This document shows positions 1,777 to 13,735 of a stretch of 64,000 nt of DNA, piece by piece. Within the stretch, counting starts at the first letter, position 1. The number at the start of each line of letters is the position of its first letter. Source of the stretch: Bacteroidota bacterium (GTDB taxonomy: Bacteria > Bacteroidota > JABWAT01); contig JAKLJL010000001.1 of NCBI GenBank assembly GCA_023151185.1, forward strand, positions 868,001-932,000, in the 5' to 3' direction. The translations under genes were made by a program, and so were the position numbers. The notes beneath the pieces are model-generated. The model saw only the letters and a list, made by a program, of their open reading frames with translations, ran no database searches and had not been told where the DNA came from.

Positions 1777-4191
1777 ATGAAAATCATCTACAGCTGGCTT
1801 AAAGAATTTGTGGATTTCGACTGGTCTCCCGAAGAACTGGCTTCCCGCCTGACCATGACTGGTCTTGAAATTGAAGGAATTGAACGCGTTGGCGCTTCCT
1901 TTAAAGGGGTCATTATCGGTAAAGTGGTTTCCCGTGAAAAGCACCCCAATGCCGATAAACTCAGTGTATGCCGGGTTGATCTTGGTGACGGGCATCCGGT
2001 GCAGATTGTTTGCGGTGCACCCAATGTGGCAGCAGGGCAAACGGTCCCGGTTGCAACTGCCGGAGCTGTTCTGGGAGCTGATTTTACCATTAAAAAGGCC
2101 ACCATCCGGGGGCAGGAATCCAACGGGATGATCTGCTCTAAAAGTGAACTTGGTCTTGAAGAAGGGAAATCTGACGGCATCTGGGTTCTGGATGAGTCTC
2201 TGACCGCAGGCCTTGATCTGGCCTCAGTCCTGAATATCCGTGAAGATTATGTTCTGGAGGTTGCTATTACTGCCAACCGGGGTGATGCCCTCAGTCATCT
2301 TGGAGTTGCACGTGATGTTGCAGCACTGGCAGGAAAAACAGTTCGTTTTCCTGACCTGACTGTCGATCCGAAATATATATCCAAAATTCAATCATCCGAG
2401 AAAATTAAAATTGAACTGGACAGTCCGGATCAGGGCCCTGTTTATGCCGGTTGGTATCTGGAAGGTGTCACCGCCCGGCCAAGCCCCGAGTGGATGCAGA
2501 CACGGATAACCCAAATGGGACTTAGACCACGGAATATTCTGGTTGACGTTACCAATTATGTGATGATGGAACTTGGTCAGCCTTTGCATGCTTTTGATTA
2601 TGACCGGCTGAAATCAGGAACCATCCGGGTTAAAACCACCGGACCAGGCCCCTTTACCACGCTGGATTCAAAAGAAAGACAACTTCCCGATCAGGCCCTC
2701 ATGATCTGTGACGGTAACGATCCGGTTGCAGTTGCCGGAATAATGGGCGGAGAGAATTCTGAAGTTGAAGACTCCACAAGCCGTGTTCTGCTTGAATCTG
2801 CCTGGTTTAATCCGTCATCTGTCAGGAAAACAGCAAAAAAACTCGGAATCAGCACCGACTCCTCCTACCGGTTTGAACGGGGAATTGACTCAGGACTTCA
2901 GAAAACGGCTGCTTTGCGTGCTGCAAAACTGATTGTTGAAAATACGGGTGGTAAAATGGCTGAAACACCTGTTTTGGCTGTTGCAAAACATCTGATTCAA
3001 CCCGAACTGACCCTGCGTTTTTCTCAGATCAAGCGGATTTTGGGGATTGAAATTCCGAAGGAAAAGGTTCATCAGATTCTGGATTCACTTGGCTTTGTCA
3101 TGATTGGCGAAAATCAAACCGAAATGATGGTCAGGGTGCCTGCCCACCGCCCGGATGTAACCCGGGAAATTGACCTGATTGAGGAATTAATCCGGATTTA
3201 CGGATTTCATCATGTGCCGGAGGCAGAAACAGTTTCAGTTTCTTACACGGCAGAGCAAAAAAGCTCCTATTCCTTTGATAACAAACTCAGGTTCATGCTG
3301 ACCGGGGCCGGATTTCAGGAAATCCTCTGCAATTCTATGATTCCGGAAAAAGATGCCCTCCTGGTTACAGGAAAGATAGTGCCGATTCTGAATCCACAGT
3401 CAGAAGAAATGGGGGTGTTACGGCCCGCACTTGCCCCGGGAATGCTGGCGATTGTTCAGAAAAACCAAAACCACGGGATTACTGACCTGAGATTTTTTGA
3501 ATTGGGGCATTGTTTTACATCGGTTAAGTCTGACCGGTATTCAAAAATCGGGAACCATCAGGAAGAAATCCGGATCGGGCTGATGATGACCGGCCAAACC
3601 GTAAAATCAACCTGGAATTCGCAACCGGAATCTTCTACACTCTTTCACCTGAAAGGGACAGTTCTGGCTGTTTTGGATGTTTTCAGACTCTCAGAGCCAG
3701 TGACAGTTACTGCAGTTGATTCTGAATTTTATGAAGATTGCCTGGTTCTTTCAACAGGGAACGTGCAGGTGGGGCATATCGGTAAAATTTCAAAGAAAGT
3801 TCAGTCTTTTTTCGGATTGAAACAACCCGTTTTTATTGCTGAATTGATCCTCGATTCACTTTATTCACTTCCCAAACACCAGCCCAGATACCAGGAGCTT
3901 CCCAAATTTCTCCCGGTTGAGAAGGACATGGCGTTTTGGGTCTCCCGTTCAGTTCCTGCCGGTGAAATGGTTCAGTCCATTCAGGAAACCAACCCGGGGC
4001 AGATCAGCCAGGTTACGGTATTTGATGTTTTTGAGGATCCGAAGAATCAGCAGAACCAGAAATCAGTCGGGTTCCGGATGACGCTTCAAAACCCAGAAAA
4101 AACCTTTACTGACCAGGAAATTGATGGAATCATGACTGCCGTCCGGCAGATGATGGAAAAGAAATTCAATGCCAGTTTAAGAGGCGGATGA
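1777..4191 (+). CDS. pheT: Phenylalanine--tRNA ligase beta subunit
   Basis: The 804-residue beta subunit recognises tRNA-Phe and edits mischarged tyrosine. In order it shows the B1 segment (MKIIYSWLKEFV), an EMAP/OB-type tRNA-binding domain (GVIIGKVVSREKHPNADKL, about 39-150), the B3/B4 editing region, the B5 domain, the catalytic-like core and a C-terminal anticodon-binding FDX-ACB domain (LPKFLPVEKDMAFWV onward). The frame is open upstream of 1777, but the ATG at 1777 gives the canonical MKI start one base after the pheS stop. Its stop overlaps the next gene's start (ATGA), indicating coupling. Confidence 0.97.
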   Translation: MKIIYSWLKEFVDFDWSPEELASRLTMTGLEIEGIERVGASFKGVIIGKVVSREKHPNADKLSVCRVDLGDGHPVQIVCGAPNVAAGQTVPVATAGAVLGADFTIKKATIRGQESNGMICSKSELGLEEGKSDGIWVLDESLTAGLDLASVLNIREDYVLEVAITANRGDALSHLGVARDVAALAGKTVRFPDLTVDPKYISKIQSSEKIKIELDSPDQGPVYAGWYLEGVTARPSPEWMQTRITQMGLRPRNILVDVTNYVMMELGQPLHAFDYDRLKSGTIRVKTTGPGPFTTLDSKERQLPDQALMICDGNDPVAVAGIMGGENSEVEDSTSRVLLESAWFNPSSVRKTAKKLGISTDSSYRFERGIDSGLQKTAALRAAKLIVENTGGKMAETPVLAVAKHLIQPELTLRFSQIKRILGIEIPKEKVHQILDSLGFVMIGENQTEMMVRVPAHRPDVTREIDLIEELIRIYGFHHVPEAETVSVSYTAEQKSSYSFDNKLRFMLTGAGFQEILCNSMIPEKDALLVTGKIVPILNPQSEEMGVLRPALAPGMLAIVQKNQNHGITDLRFFELGHCFTSVKSDRYSKIGNHQEEIRIGLMMTGQTVKSTWNSQPESSTLFHLKGTVLAVLDVFRLSEPVTVTAVDSEFYEDCLVLSTGNVQVGHIGKISKKVQSFFGLKQPVFIAELILDSLYSLPKHQPRYQELPKFLPVEKDMAFWVSRSVPAGEMVQSIQETNPGQISQVTVFDVFEDPKNQQNQKSVGFRMTLQNPEKTFTDQEIDGIMTAVRQMMEKKFNASLRGG

Positions 4192-4457
4192 TGGAACGGG
4201 AACTGATCACTCAGTTATGGTCTAACCTTCACGATCTGGGTGAAAAACTGAAATTAAAAGAGAATGAGATCGACCGGCTGTTGCTCAATACCCAGCAGCT
4301 CGAAGAAAAGCTCAGAGCAAAAGAATCGGACCTCAACCAGATGCGGATGCTTTTTTCAAGTAATCAAACTGCCTTTACTGAAGAAAAAAAGCAGTTTGAA
4401 ACCAAAGTTCAAAGTTTAATGGACCGGATTGACTCAATAACCGGTGAGGAGTCCTGA
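4188..4457 (+). CDS. Small coiled-coil protein between pheT and zapA
   Basis: This 89-residue protein is almost entirely heptad-like and charged (LKLKENEIDRLLLNTQQLEEKL), so it is predicted to be one long coiled coil with no membrane segment. It starts in the 4-base overlap with pheT (a second in-frame ATG at 4191 is equally possible) and ends two bases before zapA. Small coiled-coil genes occur at this spot in related genomes. Position and structure suggest a ZapB-like partner of ZapA in division-ring assembly, but there is no diagnostic motif, so this is inference. Confidence 0.75.
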   Translation: MMERELITQLWSNLHDLGEKLKLKENEIDRLLLNTQQLEEKLRAKESDLNQMRMLFSSNQTAFTEEKKQFETKVQSLMDRIDSITGEES

Positions 4458-4459
4458 CC

Positions 4460-4738
4460 ATGGAAACGGTAAAAGTGAAAATCATGGATCTAGAGTTTTC
4501 GCTGAAAGGCGAGGATCCTGACCTGATCAGAAAATGTGCTGCCCTCGTAGACAGAACAATGAGAGAACTGAATACCGGCCGTGCAGACCGGTCACCTGTT
4601 GCCCTGGCTGTTCTGACTGCAATTAATCTTGCAGAAGAACTTGAACTTCTAAAACGCATGCAGGCTGAACCGGAATCCTTCTATCAAACAGAACTGACCC
4701 GGATGGTTGGCTTTACTCAGGACTTGTTAAAAGGGTGA
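4460..4738 (+). CDS. zapA: Cell division protein ZapA
   Basis: The 92-residue product begins METVKVKIMDLEFSLKGEDP and continues with a helical dimerisation region (LAVLTAINLAEELELLKR), matching the ZapA family, which bundles FtsZ filaments at the division site. The length is normal for the short bacterial forms. It is the last gene of a pheS-pheT-coiled-coil-zapA run with gaps of a few bases or less. A structured RNA resembling 6S RNA follows immediately, the same arrangement as zapA-ssrS in Escherichia coli. Confidence 0.88.
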   Translation: METVKVKIMDLEFSLKGEDPDLIRKCAALVDRTMRELNTGRADRSPVALAVLTAINLAEELELLKRMQAEPESFYQTELTRMVGFTQDLLKG

Positions 4739-4758
4739 CCGGTCCCGATATTTGTATA

Positions 4759-4988
4759 CCGCACCTGCTGTTGTCACGATAAAAAGAATCTGACAAATAA
4801 TTCTTCCAGGGGAATCAGCTCTTTTCATGTAACGCAGGCCTCAATCTTAACCGATTCCATCTCGCCTGACACCTTAAGTGGTTATCAGCAGGCGGCCAAA
4901 GACGGACAGTGGAAGCAAGAATTGAAAAGGCCCTCCCCACCGTGCAGGAAAATGAGATTCTTCATTTTCACCAACAGCAGTGTTGCGG
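4759..4988 (+). ncRNA. ssrS: Probable 6S RNA (RNA polymerase regulator)
   Basis: The 5' segment CCGCA-C-CTGCTGTTG (4759-4773) pairs with CAACAGCAG-TGT-TGCGG (4972-4988), giving a long-range closing stem of 9+5 pairs around about 200 bases. Inside, AATTCTT pairs at long range with AAGAATT, extending a rod-like upper stem. On the 3' side GAAAATGA and TCATTTTC form an 8-bp hairpin with a 6-base loop, like the small hairpin seen in the central bubble of some 6S RNAs. The size fits, and so does the site directly after zapA. 6S RNA mimics an open promoter and sequesters housekeeping holoenzyme. There is no protein-coding frame here. The family assignment rests on structure and position, and the ends are approximate. 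Confidence 0.7.
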
Positions 4989-4991
4989 GAC

Positions 4992-5882
4992 TTATTTCCC
5001 GAATAAAACCCGTTGCTTTCCTGCCAGAATTCCGATATCAATCTGTGTTGCCCGGGTATCAATAACTTCGCCGTCAACATGAATCGTCAGTTCAGCCGGA
5101 CTGATAATTGAACCTCCCTCAGACGTAAAACTGGAAATTTCGGGCTCATTCAGGTGGGTTCCCTTAATAACCTTCGGGAAAATATCAAAAACCCGCATTT
5201 TTCTGACACCCGATATTAAAGTGGTATGGAAAACACCGTCATCAACTAAAGCATGGGGAGTCAATTTAAATACTCCGCCGGCATGGGTCCCGTTTCCGAA
5301 AGTCATCAGAAAAAGGGAAATCTCCATTTCCCGGTCATTGGTTTTTAACCGGATCATCGGCTCTTTATAGGTAACCAGGGTCGTTACAACCGAGTACAGG
5401 TAGGATAAAAGTCCCAGATATTTCAGCCGGTTGGCTTTGGCGGCAACCACTGCATCAAACCCAATCCCGATATTATTGATAAAAAACCGGTCTGTATGAT
5501 TTGTTTTTACGACGCCAAGGTCAACATTCCGCACTGAAAACCTGAGAAGCTGATCGACCGCATCATGAACGGAAGGTGACATTCCTACCATCTTCATGAA
5601 ATCATTTCCGGTCCCGCAGGGGATTAATCCAAAAACAACTTCCTTTCCGGCAATTCCATTTACGACTTCATTAATCGTTCCGTCACCACCGACAGCAATC
5701 ACATGTGTGGTATCCGGGGTAACTGATGAGGCGAGCCGGATTCCGTCGCCGACACCACGGGTATAACTGACCGAGGCCTTTATTCCTCTTGCAGTGAGTT
5801 CAGCAATCAGATGTTCACCGTATTGCTTTCCTTTTCCGGAACCGGCGTTGGGATTGACAATAAAACTTAAATGCGGTTCCAT
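4992..5882 (-). CDS. Diacylglycerol/lipid kinase family protein (YegS/DgkB type)
   Basis: This 296-residue protein has the nucleotide-binding signature of the diacylglycerol kinase catalytic domain: FIVNPNAGSGKGK near the N-terminus, the glycine-rich VGGDGTINEVVNG near residue 75 and FGLIPCGTGNDFMKM near residue 100. Members phosphorylate diacylglycerol or related lipids at the inner membrane face and recycle lipid head-group by-products. A GTG at 5888 is also in frame, but AGGG lies five bases before the ATG at 5882, so I chose the latter. It is convergent with the RNA gene, with the stop only a few bases from its 3' end. Confidence 0.88.
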   Translation of the reverse strand: MEPHLSFIVNPNAGSGKGKQYGEHLIAELTARGIKASVSYTRGVGDGIRLASSVTPDTTHVIAVGGDGTINEVVNGIAGKEVVFGLIPCGTGNDFMKMVGMSPSVHDAVDQLLRFSVRNVDLGVVKTNHTDRFFINNIGIGFDAVVAAKANRLKYLGLLSYLYSVVTTLVTYKEPMIRLKTNDREMEISLFLMTFGNGTHAGGVFKLTPHALVDDGVFHTTLISGVRKMRVFDIFPKVIKGTHLNEPEISSFTSEGGSIISPAELTIHVDGEVIDTRATQIDIGILAGKQRVLFGK

Positions 5883-5909
5883 TTTCACCCTTTCAAAGAA
5901 TTTGGGTTT

Positions 5910-7284: not shown

Positions 7285-10200
7285 TTGCTTCGTTTGATCG
7301 GGTTGCTTTTGACCTGGCTTCTTCTGCCATTTCATCATTCAGGAAGTGCACAGGATTTACAAAAATTCTCTCATGAAGAGTGGACTACCGATGACGGACT
7401 TCCGCAAAATACTGTTCTTTGCCTTCACCAAAGCCGGGATGGCTACCTGTGGCTGGGCACCTATGAAGGGCTTGTCAGGTATAACGGGCAGGAGTTTACC
7501 GTCTTTGATAAAAAAAATCTGCCGGGTCTTGAGAATAATACCATCCTGTCACTGAGTGAATCTGCAGACTCGGCCTTACTGATTGGTACCCGGACCGGTT
7601 TATACCGGTACAGAGCCGGGCAAATACTTAAAACTCCTCTTTTTGATACGCTTTCCGGTGAATTTATAAGAACCATTTTAACCGATTCTGCCGGTGATTT
7701 GTGGGTTGGGACAGACCGTGGTTTATTCAGATTTTCAGCAGGGCAGGTTCAGTTGATTGGGTCCAGTGACGGAATGACCAGTCTGACCATCACCTCTCTG
7801 ACTGAGGATCGGGCCGGGAGGCTCTGGATTGGTACGGCATCAGGATTGTTCATATATGAAAAAAACCGCCTCAAAAAAGCAGAATCCAACATCAGTGAAA
7901 AATCCCTTTACATCCGGACTCTTTTTACGGACAATGAAAATACGGTTTGGGTGGGAGCTTCGAACGGGTTACTGGCATTTTCGGATGGCCACCGGATACC
8001 TGTTCATCAGGGATTAAACCCTGAAAAACTAAATGTAAATTCAATCGTTCAGGACCAGCGTGGCAATCTCTGGTTTGGTACTGAATCTGGTGTTATTCTT
8101 TGGTCCAATTTAAAAGCCGGCAATTTTTCATCTGCAGACGGATTGTCAAATAACAAGATCAGATCTCTTCTTCAGGACAGGGAAGGAACCCTCTGGATCG
8201 GAACTAATTTCGGGTTAAATGCACTCAAAACCGGAAGGTTTACCGTTCTGACCAGCCAGAAAGGCCTTTCAGATGATTTTGTAAGGACCATTTTTCAGGA
8301 TAGCAGAAAAACAATCTGGGTCGGTACCAGTTTTGGGTTAAACCAAATTTCTTCAGGGAAAATCAGGCAGTTTCACCTGAATGATGGGTTACCGGGGTCT
8401 GAAATTACTGCATTGGCTGAGGATGAATCCGGCGGAATTTTAATCGGAACAAGCGGAAATGGTATCTCACTTTATAAGAACGGTGTTTTTAAAAACCAGA
8501 ACATCAACCACGGATTATTATCAAACACCATCCGGGCCTTTTTACCTGTTAAAGACGGCTCAGTTCTGATCGGGACAGCCCGCGGGCTCAACCTTCTTGT
8601 AAACGGCAGAATTGTTCCGTTTTCCCGTGAAACCCCTTCAAAACCCTGGTTTGTTCTCTCATTGACCCATCACACAGAAAACAGATTCTGGGCCGGAACC
8701 ACAACCGGGCTATTTCTTTGTGACTTTAACGGATCTTCAACTGAAATTTTATCCCCTGACGGAAACAGTCTCGGCACCGTGTTTTCAGTCTATCAGGATA
8801 AAGACGGCAATCTTTGGGCAGGAACTGATAATGGCCTGATTTTATACCGGTCAGGAAAAACGAAGATTTTTACCGTTCAGGACGGGTTGTACAACGATAT
8901 TGCCTTTCAGATACTGGAAAGTCAGGATGGTCACTTCTGGATGACCTGCAATAAGGGGATCTATGAAATCAGCAGGCAGGCCCTGATTGATTATACAGAT
9001 GGTAAAACCGAAAAACTTTCCTGCCGGGTTTATACCAAATCGGACGGACTCAGAACCAGCCAGTGCAACGGTTCTTCACAACCTGCAGGTGCTCTGCTTT
9101 CTGATGGCAGGATGATGTTCCCGACTGCAAGGGGCGTTGCCATTGCGGATAATTCTGAAACAACCAAAGCAAATCCGGTCCCGCCTCCGGTCGTAATCGA
9201 AAAGGTACTGGCACTGAATGAGTCAGTGAAAATGCAGGAAATTCTGAAAATGGCCCCCGGTAAACGCCGGTTTCAGTTCCACTATGCAGCTCTTACCTAT
9301 ATTGAACCGGAAAAAGTCAGGTACCGGTACAAACTTGAAGGATTTGATGAGGACTGGATTGAGGCTGGATCCCGCCGGACTGCCTTTTATACTAATTTGC
9401 CCCCCGGTGATTACACCTTCAGAGTTTTGGCAGCCAACAGTGACGGAGTATGGAATCAAACCGGTGCTTCAGTCGGTCTTTATCTTGAACCATATTACTA
9501 CCAGACTGTGTGGTTCTGGGTAATCATCGGTTCGGTTCTGGTTCTAATTTTTGTTTATTTCCACTTTTCCCGAATCAGGCAGCATCAGTTTCTTGGAAAA
9601 CAACTTCAGATTCAGGTCAAAGAAAGAACCCGTGAGCTTCAGACAGAGAAAGACCGGGCCGAAGAAGCACTTATAACAGCAGAAAAGGCCACTGCAGAGC
9701 TAAATAACCGGACTCAGGAACTCGAAAATGCCCTTATCCGGCTTAAACAAACCCAGTTTCAGTTGATTCAATCAGAGAAAATGATTTCAATTGGTCATTT
9801 AACAGCAGGTATTGCCCATGAGATCAATAATCCGATCAATTATATTTTCTCAGCACTTTCACCGTTACGGCGTGACGTTCAGCATCTACTGGATTCAATC
9901 AGCGATCTTTCCCGTCAGTTTCCTGAAAGCAGTGAAGTCATCAGACAGCTTTTATACAAACACGATTATTACGAAATTCTTTCAGAAATTCCGGTTCTGC
10001 TGAATGGAATTGAGGATGGGGCCCGCCGTACGGAAGAAATTGTCAGAAGTCTGAGGACTTATTCCCGGGTTGATGAAGAGGGACCGAAGAAAACAGATCT
10101 TTTATTTTCCCTTGAGAATACCTTGTTTTTAATGAAAAGCAGGATAGGAGAAGGGGTCAGAATTCTAAGAGAATTTGATGAAATTGATCCGGTGGACTGT

Positions 10201-10578
10201 TTTCCCGGGCAAATGAATCAGGTCTTTATGAATCTGCTGGCCAATGCTCTCGATGCTGTAAAAGGGAAGGGAGAGATCAAACTTAAAGCGTGGCAGAAAA
10301 AGGACCGTGTTTTTATTTCACTAACAGATTCAGGACCCGGTATTCCTGAAGACATTCAGAATAAGATATTTGACCCGTTTTTCTCATCCAAAGAAATTGG
10401 GACCGGTACGGGTCTTGGCCTTTTTGTTGCCTACGGTGTCATTCAAGCCCATCAGGGTACCATTACATTTTCATCCGAAAAAGGACAGGGAACAACCTTT
10501 ACTTTGTCACTACCGCTTGTTTATGCACCAGTTCTCAATCCGGACCGGAAACTGGATGCTTCGGTAAAATTACCGTAA
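7285..10578 (+). CDS. Beta-propeller/Y_Y_Y sensor histidine kinase (orphan)
   Basis: A 1097-residue membrane sensor. A signal peptide (LLLTWLLLPFHHSGSAQ) leads into about 14 propeller blades of the Reg_prop type (DGYLWLGTYEGLVRY and similar), a Y_Y_Y domain (near 678-740, YRYKLEGFDEDW), one transmembrane helix (about 742-764), a coiled coil, and a kinase core. The H-box is IAHEINNPINY with His845; the N-box (NLLANALDAV) and G-boxes (DSGPGIP, GTGTGLGL) are intact, so it should autophosphorylate. It starts at TTG, four bases after GGAGG. There is no receiver domain and no adjacent regulator. The ligand is unknown; related sensors detect carbohydrates or other extracellular compounds. The 3' end overlaps the convergent kinase gene by 44 bases. 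Confidence 0.92.
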   Translation: MLRLIGLLLTWLLLPFHHSGSAQDLQKFSHEEWTTDDGLPQNTVLCLHQSRDGYLWLGTYEGLVRYNGQEFTVFDKKNLPGLENNTILSLSESADSALLIGTRTGLYRYRAGQILKTPLFDTLSGEFIRTILTDSAGDLWVGTDRGLFRFSAGQVQLIGSSDGMTSLTITSLTEDRAGRLWIGTASGLFIYEKNRLKKAESNISEKSLYIRTLFTDNENTVWVGASNGLLAFSDGHRIPVHQGLNPEKLNVNSIVQDQRGNLWFGTESGVILWSNLKAGNFSSADGLSNNKIRSLLQDREGTLWIGTNFGLNALKTGRFTVLTSQKGLSDDFVRTIFQDSRKTIWVGTSFGLNQISSGKIRQFHLNDGLPGSEITALAEDESGGILIGTSGNGISLYKNGVFKNQNINHGLLSNTIRAFLPVKDGSVLIGTARGLNLLVNGRIVPFSRETPSKPWFVLSLTHHTENRFWAGTTTGLFLCDFNGSSTEILSPDGNSLGTVFSVYQDKDGNLWAGTDNGLILYRSGKTKIFTVQDGLYNDIAFQILESQDGHFWMTCNKGIYEISRQALIDYTDGKTEKLSCRVYTKSDGLRTSQCNGSSQPAGALLSDGRMMFPTARGVAIADNSETTKANPVPPPVVIEKVLALNESVKMQEILKMAPGKRRFQFHYAALTYIEPEKVRYRYKLEGFDEDWIEAGSRRTAFYTNLPPGDYTFRVLAANSDGVWNQTGASVGLYLEPYYYQTVWFWVIIGSVLVLIFVYFHFSRIRQHQFLGKQLQIQVKERTRELQTEKDRAEEALITAEKATAELNNRTQELENALIRLKQTQFQLIQSEKMISIGHLTAGIAHEINNPINYIFSALSPLRRDVQHLLDSISDLSRQFPESSEVIRQLLYKHDYYEILSEIPVLLNGIEDGARRTEEIVRSLRTYSRVDEEGPKKTDLLFSLENTLFLMKSRIGEGVRILREFDEIDPVDCFPGQMNQVFMNLLANALDAVKGKGEIKLKAWQKKDRVFISLTDSGPGIPEDIQNKIFDPFFSSKEIGTGTGLGLFVAYGVIQAHQGTITFSSEKGQGTTFTLSLPLVYAPVLNPDRKLDASVKLP

Positions 10579-13500
10579 AGGTGCTGCCTTCCCCCGGAAC
10601 ACTGGAAACAAGAATTTTCCCATGATGCTTCTGAATAATCTGGTAGGAGATTGAAAGTCCGAGTCCGGTTCCTTTTCCGACCGGCTTCGTGGTAAAGAAG
10701 GGATCGAAAAGGCGGGGCAAATTTTGAGGGTTAATTCCAATACCCGAATCTTTTATGGATAGTTTAATTTCCTCTTCTGTTTCGGATGTTTCAATTTCAA
10801 TGGAGCCTTTTCCCGGAATGGCCTGCATGGCATTAAGAAGAAGATTCATCATGACCTGGTTGATCTGTCCTGGAAATCCGGTCAGCAGGGAAGTATGATG
10901 AAACCGGATTGTGACTTCAATTCTCCCGGAATATTCCTTTTCGAGCAGTTTCAGTGTTATCCGCAGTCCTTCTGCCAGATCAAAAACTTTCATGTCGTTT
11001 TCATCCAGCCTTGAGAAATTCCGGAGACTTTTTACAATATCCGATGTCCGTTCAGAGCCGTTTTCAATGCCGGCAATCAGATCTGAAATCTCTTTTTTCA
11101 GTTCACCTGCCGAAACACGGTTTTCCAGTGATCTGAGCTGCGAAACCAAAGAAGCCGTTTTTTCAGGGAGTTCAATCTCCGTCAGACTCGCAGTAATCCG
11201 TTCATATTGGTTCAGGTATTCAGTCAGATCTGAGAGATCTTCTTTTAACGGGTAAATACTGGCCTGAATAAAATTCACCGGGTTATTAATCTCGTGAGCT
11301 ATTCCTGCAACGAGCGTTCCGATGGAGGCCATTTTTTCGGATTGAATCAGTTGTGCCTGCGATTGTTTTAACTGCTCATAACTTTGGGCCAGTTCAGATG
11401 TTTTTTCCTGAACCAGGAGTTCAAGCCGGATTTTCTCTTCCTGTGTTTTCCTGACCCGCCACCTGACATACCCGTAGATCAGGAGAAGGGATAACAAAAT
11501 GTAGGAAAGATAGGCGTATTTTGAATTGAACCAGGCAGGGTTAACTCTGAAAGGCAGAACTGCCGGGTCCGAAATCCGGCCGTAGATCGTTTTTGCCCTG
11601 ACTTCAAAAACATAATCGCCCGGAGGAAGGTTGGTAAATTCCTTTTTTATTTCCGGTGTCCAGGCACTCCATTCGGGGTGAAATCCGTTTAGCCGGAATT
11701 GATACTCCAGTTTTCCGTCTCCGTCAAAAGAAGGGGCTGAAAACATAAACCCTACATTTCGCTGAGCCCAGTCTAAAACCAGAGGCTCCGGTTTTAGGGG
11801 AAGCATTTGACCGTCTGATTCAGCTTTTCTTATCATGGAAGTAAAAACCGGCGGAGAATTTAAACTGATCGCCGGATTGTATCTGAAAACACCATGGTCG
11901 CCTCCAAGCCAAAAGCTGCCATCCGAAGAGGGAATTATCGCCCAGATTCCTCCCGGCGGAAGCCGGTTAAAAGGAACATCCCGGATTCTGCAGGTCTTCC
12001 CGTTAAGGGTAACCTGAAAAACGTGATAGGAATTGGTCAGCCAGAAAACAGAATCTGAAATCTGTTTCAAAATAGAAGAGGCATCAGCCAACTGGTGCGG
12101 AAAGTCAGGAAGCTGGAAAAAGCGGTTGGACTCTTTAGCGAAACGGAAAAGGCCTCTTACTGTCAGAATAACCGGCTCAGAATTGAACTCGGCTGTAAAA
12201 TTTTCAGCGGGTGGAAGTCCGTTTGACTCATTAAAAGCCAGAACTTCAGGGTTCAGAAAGTCACTACCGCTGAATTTAAAACAGTGAACCCCTTCAGTAA
12301 AGCTTCCCGTCCAGATATTCCCGGCTTTGTCTTCATGAATGGAATAGGCCCCCGAGGAAAATCCGGCAATCTTTCCTGCAAAGGTTAGGGATGCCGGGGA
12401 GCCCCTGTAGACAAAAACGCCAGTTGGAGAGCCGGTAAAAATGTAGCCCGGATGGTGTTTCGAAATCAGGATGCAGGACTGGCTTTCCCTGTTAATGATT
12501 TTGGGAATTCCGTCAGTAATCACCGCAAGCCCTTCTGAAGTTGCAGCCAGGACAGAAGACCCCAATTTGGATAGGTGCCAGACTTCTCCTCTGATCAGTG
12601 AATTTTGAGTAAAAACCAGATTCTCAGTTGTCCGGCTGGTTCCATTTTCAGAAAACCGGGCAGAGAAAAGTCCGTGCATCGTCCCGGCATACAATCTCTC
12701 CCGGTCTTCATGAAGAGACAGAACAATTCCTTTGAGCCCATTTGGTTTGGAATAAAAACTCCAGGCTGAAGGGAATTCGGCCCTGGAAATTCCCATCTCG
12801 CCGGATATCCATAATCCAGATTCAGAATCCCTGTAAACCGCATAAATAATATTGGACTGGAGACCGTTGTTTTCGGTTAAGGAAGTCAGGAAATTACCGT
12901 TCCTGTCAATCACCAGAACACCACCCCGGATGGTGGGTAAGGCATAGCCGGTTTCCCCCAATGAAGCAGACTGAAGGTAACAGGCATAATTCTTCAGATA
13001 CTCGCTTGCTTTCCCCGGGATGGAAGAAAGTAGTCCGTTTTTAAGGGTGAACAGCCCCTTCCGTTCCGAAACCAGAATCATCTCTCCGGATGCAGAACGG
13101 AAGGCAAACGGAAAATCTTCAGATTTTGCTTCCGGTGATGTGCACACGGGTCTCGGATTCATTCCTTCAAGTAAAAAAATGCCCCCGGTTTTCTCAACCA
13201 GCCAGATGGATCCATCCAGTTTGAACAGGTTCGAAAAATTACCGTTAAACGAAGTCAGGACTGATAATTTTGAATTTTTCAGGTGGAAAAGGTACCGTGA
13301 TGAGAGAAAGTAAAGAGAGGAATCCTGCCGTTCAATTTTCCAGATTTCATTGAAATCACTGAATTCCTCAGGAACCAGAAATTTCAGACTTTTAAAGACC
13401 TTTGTTCCGTTTGGAAGCTCATCAAGAAAACCAAAATCACCGGTGCTTCCGGCATAAATTTTCCCATCCGGGCCAACAGCCAAAGACCGGACCACCCCAT

Positions 13501-13735
13501 TTTCGGGAGAATCAATAAAAGACCAGACGGCTCCGTCAAATTCAAGAATACCACCCCGGTTATTCCCAAAATACATCATTCCATCCGGACCCTGAATTGA
13601 ACAGTAAGTCTGCGGATCGGCATGATAGTCGGATGGATTGAAAACACGGATAAACGGCGAGCAGTCAGCACGGAAGCTGCCGGCCATTAATCCGGCGATT
13701 ACCAAAGTGAATTTAAATAAAAATCTGGACGTCAG
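10535..13735 (-). CDS. Beta-propeller/Y_Y_Y sensor histidine kinase (orphan; probable CTG start)
   Basis: This is a second large sensor: propeller blades starting near YCSIQGPDGMMYFGNNRG, a Y_Y_Y domain (YQFRLNGFHPEWSAW), one membrane helix (YAYLSYILLSLLLIYGYV), a coiled coil and a kinase core with IAHEINNPVNF (His near 814), NLLLNAMQAI and GTGLGLSI, all intact. The first standard start is a TTG at 13705, but it cuts a signal peptide in half and has no ribosome-binding site. The CTG at 13735 lies five bases after GGAGG and restores the leader TSRFLFKFTLVIAGLMAGSF. I therefore extend to CTG; a base error hiding an ATG is the alternative. No receiver domain or neighbouring response regulator is present. 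Confidence 0.9.
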   Translation of the reverse strand: MTSRFLFKFTLVIAGLMAGSFRADCSPFIRVFNPSDYHADPQTYCSIQGPDGMMYFGNNRGGILEFDGAVWSFIDSPENGVVRSLAVGPDGKIYAGSTGDFGFLDELPNGTKVFKSLKFLVPEEFSDFNEIWKIERQDSSLYFLSSRYLFHLKNSKLSVLTSFNGNFSNLFKLDGSIWLVEKTGGIFLLEGMNPRPVCTSPEAKSEDFPFAFRSASGEMILVSERKGLFTLKNGLLSSIPGKASEYLKNYACYLQSASLGETGYALPTIRGGVLVIDRNGNFLTSLTENNGLQSNIIYAVYRDSESGLWISGEMGISRAEFPSAWSFYSKPNGLKGIVLSLHEDRERLYAGTMHGLFSARFSENGTSRTTENLVFTQNSLIRGEVWHLSKLGSSVLAATSEGLAVITDGIPKIINRESQSCILISKHHPGYIFTGSPTGVFVYRGSPASLTFAGKIAGFSSGAYSIHEDKAGNIWTGSFTEGVHCFKFSGSDFLNPEVLAFNESNGLPPAENFTAEFNSEPVILTVRGLFRFAKESNRFFQLPDFPHQLADASSILKQISDSVFWLTNSYHVFQVTLNGKTCRIRDVPFNRLPPGGIWAIIPSSDGSFWLGGDHGVFRYNPAISLNSPPVFTSMIRKAESDGQMLPLKPEPLVLDWAQRNVGFMFSAPSFDGDGKLEYQFRLNGFHPEWSAWTPEIKKEFTNLPPGDYVFEVRAKTIYGRISDPAVLPFRVNPAWFNSKYAYLSYILLSLLLIYGYVRWRVRKTQEEKIRLELLVQEKTSELAQSYEQLKQSQAQLIQSEKMASIGTLVAGIAHEINNPVNFIQASIYPLKEDLSDLTEYLNQYERITASLTEIELPEKTASLVSQLRSLENRVSAGELKKEISDLIAGIENGSERTSDIVKSLRNFSRLDENDMKVFDLAEGLRITLKLLEKEYSGRIEVTIRFHHTSLLTGFPGQINQVMMNLLLNAMQAIPGKGSIEIETSETEEEIKLSIKDSGIGINPQNLPRLFDPFFTTKPVGKGTGLGLSISYQIIQKHHGKILVSSVPGEGSTFTVILPKHPVSGPD

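Follow-up and report, generated by a model that had tools for sequence, protein, structure and literature searches.

A probable 6S RNA gene directly behind zapA in a Bacteroidota genome, beyond the reach of the Rfam 6S model

The stretch of DNA from an uncultured Bacteroidota bacterium analyzed here (64,000 nucleotides at its full length, hereafter the window) carries, directly downstream of zapA, a plus-strand gene for a 6S-type RNA at 4759–4988 (approximate ends, placed by the closing stem, which spans ~230 nt from end to end). By imitating an open promoter, 6S RNA holds RNA polymerase. We consider it very probable that the RNA in the window is the 6S RNA of this genome and, like the known family, would bind polymerase and template product RNAs; judged by sequence and structure models, it is homologous to an RNA family that is linked to zapA across the phylum and partly recognised by the Rfam model RF00013. 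An earlier note had proposed a 6S RNA candidate at this place, a proposal now supported by the match to a covariance model from which the window's family had been held out, by gene order and by covariation. The properties of 6S RNA are found here as homology (the held-out match, together with the coincidence of 42/42 RF00013 places with those of the same model), as an architecture of closing stem, central bubble and apical arm (covariation, permutation and one compensatory pair) and as a size of ~200 nt with low copy number (about 230 nt; one match in the genome). The region was also described as free of protein coding, which holds, as the sole open reading frame of at least 60 aa is a mechanical and implausible 68-aa minus-strand frame (4874–5080) entering the neighbour gene.

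Using RF00013, whose gathering score is 46.4 bits, no match was obtained in the window, even at E-values up to 10, nor anywhere in the window's genome. The RNA therefore falls short of an RF00013 entry (at least 46.4 bits) and is classed solely as homologous to RNAs that the model does match. The Rfam search of the window returned nothing but a tRNA at gathering scores, and two snoRNA matches near the region at E-values up to 10 were rejected as chance matches. Across the phylum, RF00013 matched 42 of 198 genomes at E-values up to 0.1, a single one of them above the cut-off (best score 47.1 bits); in the three loci shown, the alignment spans the full model (1–187), and locus L042 matches at 31 bits.

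We made use of a second covariance model, R1, built from 16 core zapA-downstream sequences of other Bacteroidota families, the window's own family being left out. R1 matched the held-out window at 4781–4964 (71.2 bits, E 6.5e-13) and matched 14 of the 15 sources searched, the exception being locus L034. In the window's genome, the single R1 match lies at the 4759–4988 RNA (E 2.2e-11), and over 296 phylum genomes R1 matched 165, with one match each. Each of the 42 places found with RF00013 overlaps an R1 match of the same orientation. The covariance-model check suggested by the earlier note thus came out divided, RF00013 being silent in the window and the model derived from other families giving a clear match. 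The 6S-Flavo model RF01685 matched 22 of the 198 genomes, but neither the window's genome nor its family (G000–G003), which places the RNA outside RF01685; when the lists were compared, none of the 22 genomes had an R1 match. Applied to E. coli ssrS, R1 failed to find it even with filters off, the highest-scoring chance match (6.6 bits) lying elsewhere, and the link to E. coli therefore runs only via RF00013 and gene order.

The gene immediately upstream of the RNA (4460–4738, plus strand) encodes ZapA, as indicated by PF05164 (46.1 bits against a cut-off of 23.8; E 6.4e-12), and is preceded by a small plus-strand open reading frame between pheT and zapA (4188–4457) that is zapB-like by position only, with no Pfam family above cut-off. 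Downstream, a convergent YegS/diacylglycerol-kinase-type gene (4992–5888, minus strand; PF00781 102.7 bits, PF19279 83.6 bits) occupies the site at which most relatives carry rny. Among 60 loci, 59 have zapA upstream of the RNA, and in 56 the RNA is followed by rny on its own strand; of the four loci devoid of a downstream rny, three belong to the window's family and the fourth is L132. E. coli has the order zapA–ssrS–fau, and according to PMC7641849, ssrS lies directly behind zapA in beta- and gamma-proteobacteria. The agreement with the enterobacterial order that had been remarked on from the window is thereby borne out. The 6S-Flavo RNAs (L114–L118) were likewise located between zapA and rny in 5/5 loci examined, so that this slot is common to two groups of 6S RNA for which Rfam has either separate models or none. 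Elsewhere in the window, two very large sensor-kinase-like frames, alike in build as judged by eye, run towards each other (7285–10578, plus strand; 10535–13705, minus strand), with overlapping 3' ends.

The absence of the usual neighbour rny, also pointed out earlier, extends beyond the locus, since rny does not adjoin the RNA and no credible copy was found genome-wide. An rny query that recovers the gene of another family at E 4e-95 found no match in G001, G002, G003 and G122, and aligned in G000 with only 45 residues (E 7e-4). As judged from these searches, rny has apparently been lost in the window's family (the four genomes G000–G003) while the RNA stays.

This bears on the reading in which the RNA is a cis-acting element of the zapA–rny transcript, such as a leader, an attenuator or an RNase Y autoregulation site, rather than a free 6S RNA. 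In nearly all loci the RNA is flanked by zapA and rny and shares their strand, which would agree with such an element, as would the lack of a detected promoter of its own. No sigma-70 promoters and no intrinsic terminators were found near the RNA. The −7-type promoter motif of Bacteroidota was encountered upstream of the RNA in 0/60 loci as an exact match and in 35% of them at no fewer than five of its six positions, compared with 29% in shuffles, and was therefore rejected as evidence. A T-run of at least five follows the RNA in 33/60 loci, compared with 17% in shuffles, and the window's run is broken. However, the RNA remains conserved in the window's family even though rny no longer lies nearby and no credible copy was found in these genomes, which argues against a mere rny leader; moreover, RF00013 aligns end to end with members of the R1 family, and the accepted 6S-Flavo RNAs fill the same zapA–rny slot. 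We thus regard a cis-acting element as very unlikely and retain the reading as a 6S RNA.

The DNA at 4740–4995 is kept in three other genomes of the window's family, with 86, 86 and 78% identity over 230–247 query bases, and is situated after zapA in all three. For a broader comparison, 99 genomes were searched and ZapA was detected in 39; loci were obtained from 30 of the 39, and the post-zapA stretch was aligned for 29 of these 30. By eye, most aligned rows share the motifs CCGCAC, AAAGAAC, AGGGAG, GCAGGCC, GTGGAAGC, CCCACCGTG, GTTCTT and TGCGG, while rows L031, L032, L035 and L040 deviate from them. Locus L034 (genome G017) contains no 6S-type RNA after zapA, neither by eye nor by R1; the apparent start of an rny-type frame was seen there close behind zapA.

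For the covariation analysis, 60 loci were chosen by hand, most genera contributing a single one, and their alignment was fitted to the R1 structure. In this alignment 95.4% of the cells are paired, and changes on both sides occur in 11 of 17 pairs. The covariation score amounts to 0.307, compared with 0.123 in shuffles. None of 500 shuffles reached the observed score, and slid versions did not exceed 0.087. The structure that RNAalifold itself derives from the same 60 sequences recovers P2, the stem below the central bubble, and one further covarying pair, and assigns to the GGG strand other partners than R1 does.

The elements of the window RNA (closing stem 4759–4773/4972–4988, P2, bubble and apical arm, all on the plus strand) were mapped via the RF00013 alignments of the relatives. 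Both closing helices named in the earlier note exist: the outer strands CCGCA (4759–4763) and TGCGG (4984–4988) pair with a probability of 0.90, and the inner strands CTGCTGTTG (4765–4773) and CAACAGCAG (4972–4980) with a probability of 0.93. In the outer stem, a C–G pair is replaced by U–G in two relatives. At 4770/4975 in the inner stem, the G–C pair of the window is A–U in three relatives, that is, one compensatory change, behind which stand few independent events, as G001 and G002 are near-identical there. The closing stem, which lies outside R1, was tested by permuting the 5' and 3' flank partners of the 60 loci: the flanks pair better with their own partners than with permuted ones (mean −31.8 versus −19.4 kcal/mol; 0/5000 permutations), the window's own partner ranking only 14th of 60 by duplex energy. 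The search for compensatory substitutions in this stem, as had been proposed, accordingly yielded one, supplemented by the coupling of the flanks. The earlier note had set the joint absence of a covariance-model hit and of compensatory substitutions as grounds for abandoning the candidate; the silence of RF00013 alone amounts to half of this, and with R1 and the pair 4770/4975 both a hit and a substitution are at hand.

P2 is formed by AAGAATC (4784–4790) and GATTCTT (4956–4962), the equivalent of the RF00013 stem in the relatives' alignments, and is the interior pairing conserved across the phylum, with both-side changes in 5 of 6 modelled pairs and 99.7% of cells paired in the 60 sequences. 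The rod-like interior suggested at first, AATTCTT (4799–4805) with AAGAATT (4917–4923), did not stand, these being complementary strings only, with a probability of 4e-6 in the fold. Above P2, the RF00013 alignments of relatives, together with R1, locate the central bubble, whose 5' side (4791–4808) may act as the product RNA template; the 3' side (4939–4955, with an ACCGTG motif) has its counterpart, in the relatives' alignments, in the part of RF00013 that follows CCC. The apical arm begins with GGGG (4809–4812) paired to CCCC (4935–4938), where three G–C pairs are invariant in 60/60 sequences and adjoining pairs covary. Further up, GCAGGCC (4834–4840) has as its partner the shared motif GTGGAAGC at 4909–4916, as supported by covariation in the 60-sequence alignment; the column pairs 68/203 and 69/201 of the upper arm show both-side changes in 14/60 and 24/60 sequences, respectively. 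Of the 59 sequences with letters at the apical-arm pair 42/222, 19 leave it unpaired.

With these elements in hand, the possibility that the RNA is a structured descendant of 6S RNA whose role has changed in the window's lineage can be weighed. R1 scores of 64–71 bits in the window's family, versus up to 140 bits in other families (a few families being lower still), and the loss of rny from the operon would be in line with such a change; nevertheless, the core elements, namely P2, GGG/CCC, GCAGGCC/GGAAGC and the closing stem, are all kept, and the chances of a changed role appear slighter still than those of a cis-acting element. That an ordinary spacer folds this way by chance, its complementary strings having been picked by eye, is scarcely conceivable: taken singly, the window sequence does fold in an only moderately unusual way (−66.2 kcal/mol versus a shuffled mean of −54.8; z −2.59; 1/200 shuffles equally good) and RF00013 is silent in the window, but the DNA is 78–86% conserved in relatives, the window matches a model built from other families at E 6.5e-13 and covariation is far above shuffles and slides, so that the held-out match and the covariation already refute this explanation.

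The earlier note had further described an 8-bp hairpin on the 3' side of the bubble. The hairpin exists, its length being nine pairs (4948–4969, arms 4948–4956/4961–4969; pair probability 0.88; z −2.13), and it is a candidate release hairpin. As it consumes the 3' strand of P2, hairpin and P2 exclude each other, and in the fold of the free RNA the hairpin form (−66.2 kcal/mol) is favoured over the P2 form (−63.4 kcal/mol) by 2.8 kcal/mol. In the 60 loci, the arms fit their own partner better than permuted ones (0/5000). The hairpin was rejected as a universal feature, with z below −2 in only 20/60 loci; a local hairpin of −6 kcal/mol or lower that uses the P2 strand forms in 23/60. The putative hairpin/P2 switch is lineage-specific within Bacteroidota.

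In E. coli, according to PMC8876501, product RNA synthesis unwinds the stem, whereupon a 9-bp hairpin in the 3' bubble drives release, and B. subtilis 6S-1 differs. By analogy, we infer that a similar release switch may operate in the window RNA. In line with the known family, the RNA would mimic an open promoter, bind the housekeeping RNA polymerase holoenzyme and restrain transcription when nutrients are low. Release would follow when the polymerase, starting on the 5' side of the bubble and running on into the P2 strand, transcribes short product RNAs, and in the window's lineage the freed 3' strand of P2 could form the 9-bp hairpin, as in E. coli.

The linkage of zapA and 6S RNA is common to Proteobacteria and many Bacteroidota lineages, with rny as a third member in Bacteroidota, and its presence in both groups suggests that the order may be ancestral. 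We tentatively entertain a joint reading, possible though not probable, in which the zapA–6S order is ancestral to Proteobacteria and Bacteroidota and was kept by a coupling of cell division to transcription shutdown; the neighbour-encoded RNase Y would handle Bacteroidota 6S RNA except in the window's family, where rny was apparently lost and the RNA kept, and an E. coli-like release hairpin would have arisen or persisted in this family. In titles and abstracts, we encountered no zapA–6S–rny family reported for these lineages; an earlier report, for instance in the survey by Wehner et al. (2014) that PMC7366714 cites, is possible.

In practical terms, R1 finds 165 of 296 genomes, compared with 1 of 198 above the cut-off for RF00013, and with a corrected model, annotation pipelines could include 6S RNA, a global transcription regulator, in many genomes. 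The zapA–6S–rny order provides a strong positional test for 6S RNA; it also raises the question of RNase Y in 6S RNA turnover, for which a family apparently without RNase Y offers a natural comparison.

Within Bacteroidota, 6S RNAs are already known from two studies, and the window RNA adds one where Rfam sees none. In Bacteroides thetaiotaomicron, of the same phylum, a 6S RNA with detected product RNAs is described in PMC7366714, and the window RNA is likened to it by description, not by sequence. 6S-Flavo (RF01685), which PMC2864571 presents as a 6S RNA, shares with the window RNA the phylum and the zapA–RNA–rny slot (5/5 loci), but its model misses the window's genome and family. Compared with E. 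coli ssrS and RF00013, differences lie in the next gene, which is fau in E. coli and the convergent lipid-kinase-type gene in the window, and in the models, RF00013 missing the window RNA and R1 missing E. coli ssrS. The likeness to these references comprises the position after zapA, the rod with closing stem, central bubble and apical arm, the full-length alignment of RF00013 to relatives of the window RNA and, following PMC8876501, a 9-bp hairpin able to form in the 3' bubble once the stem below opens.
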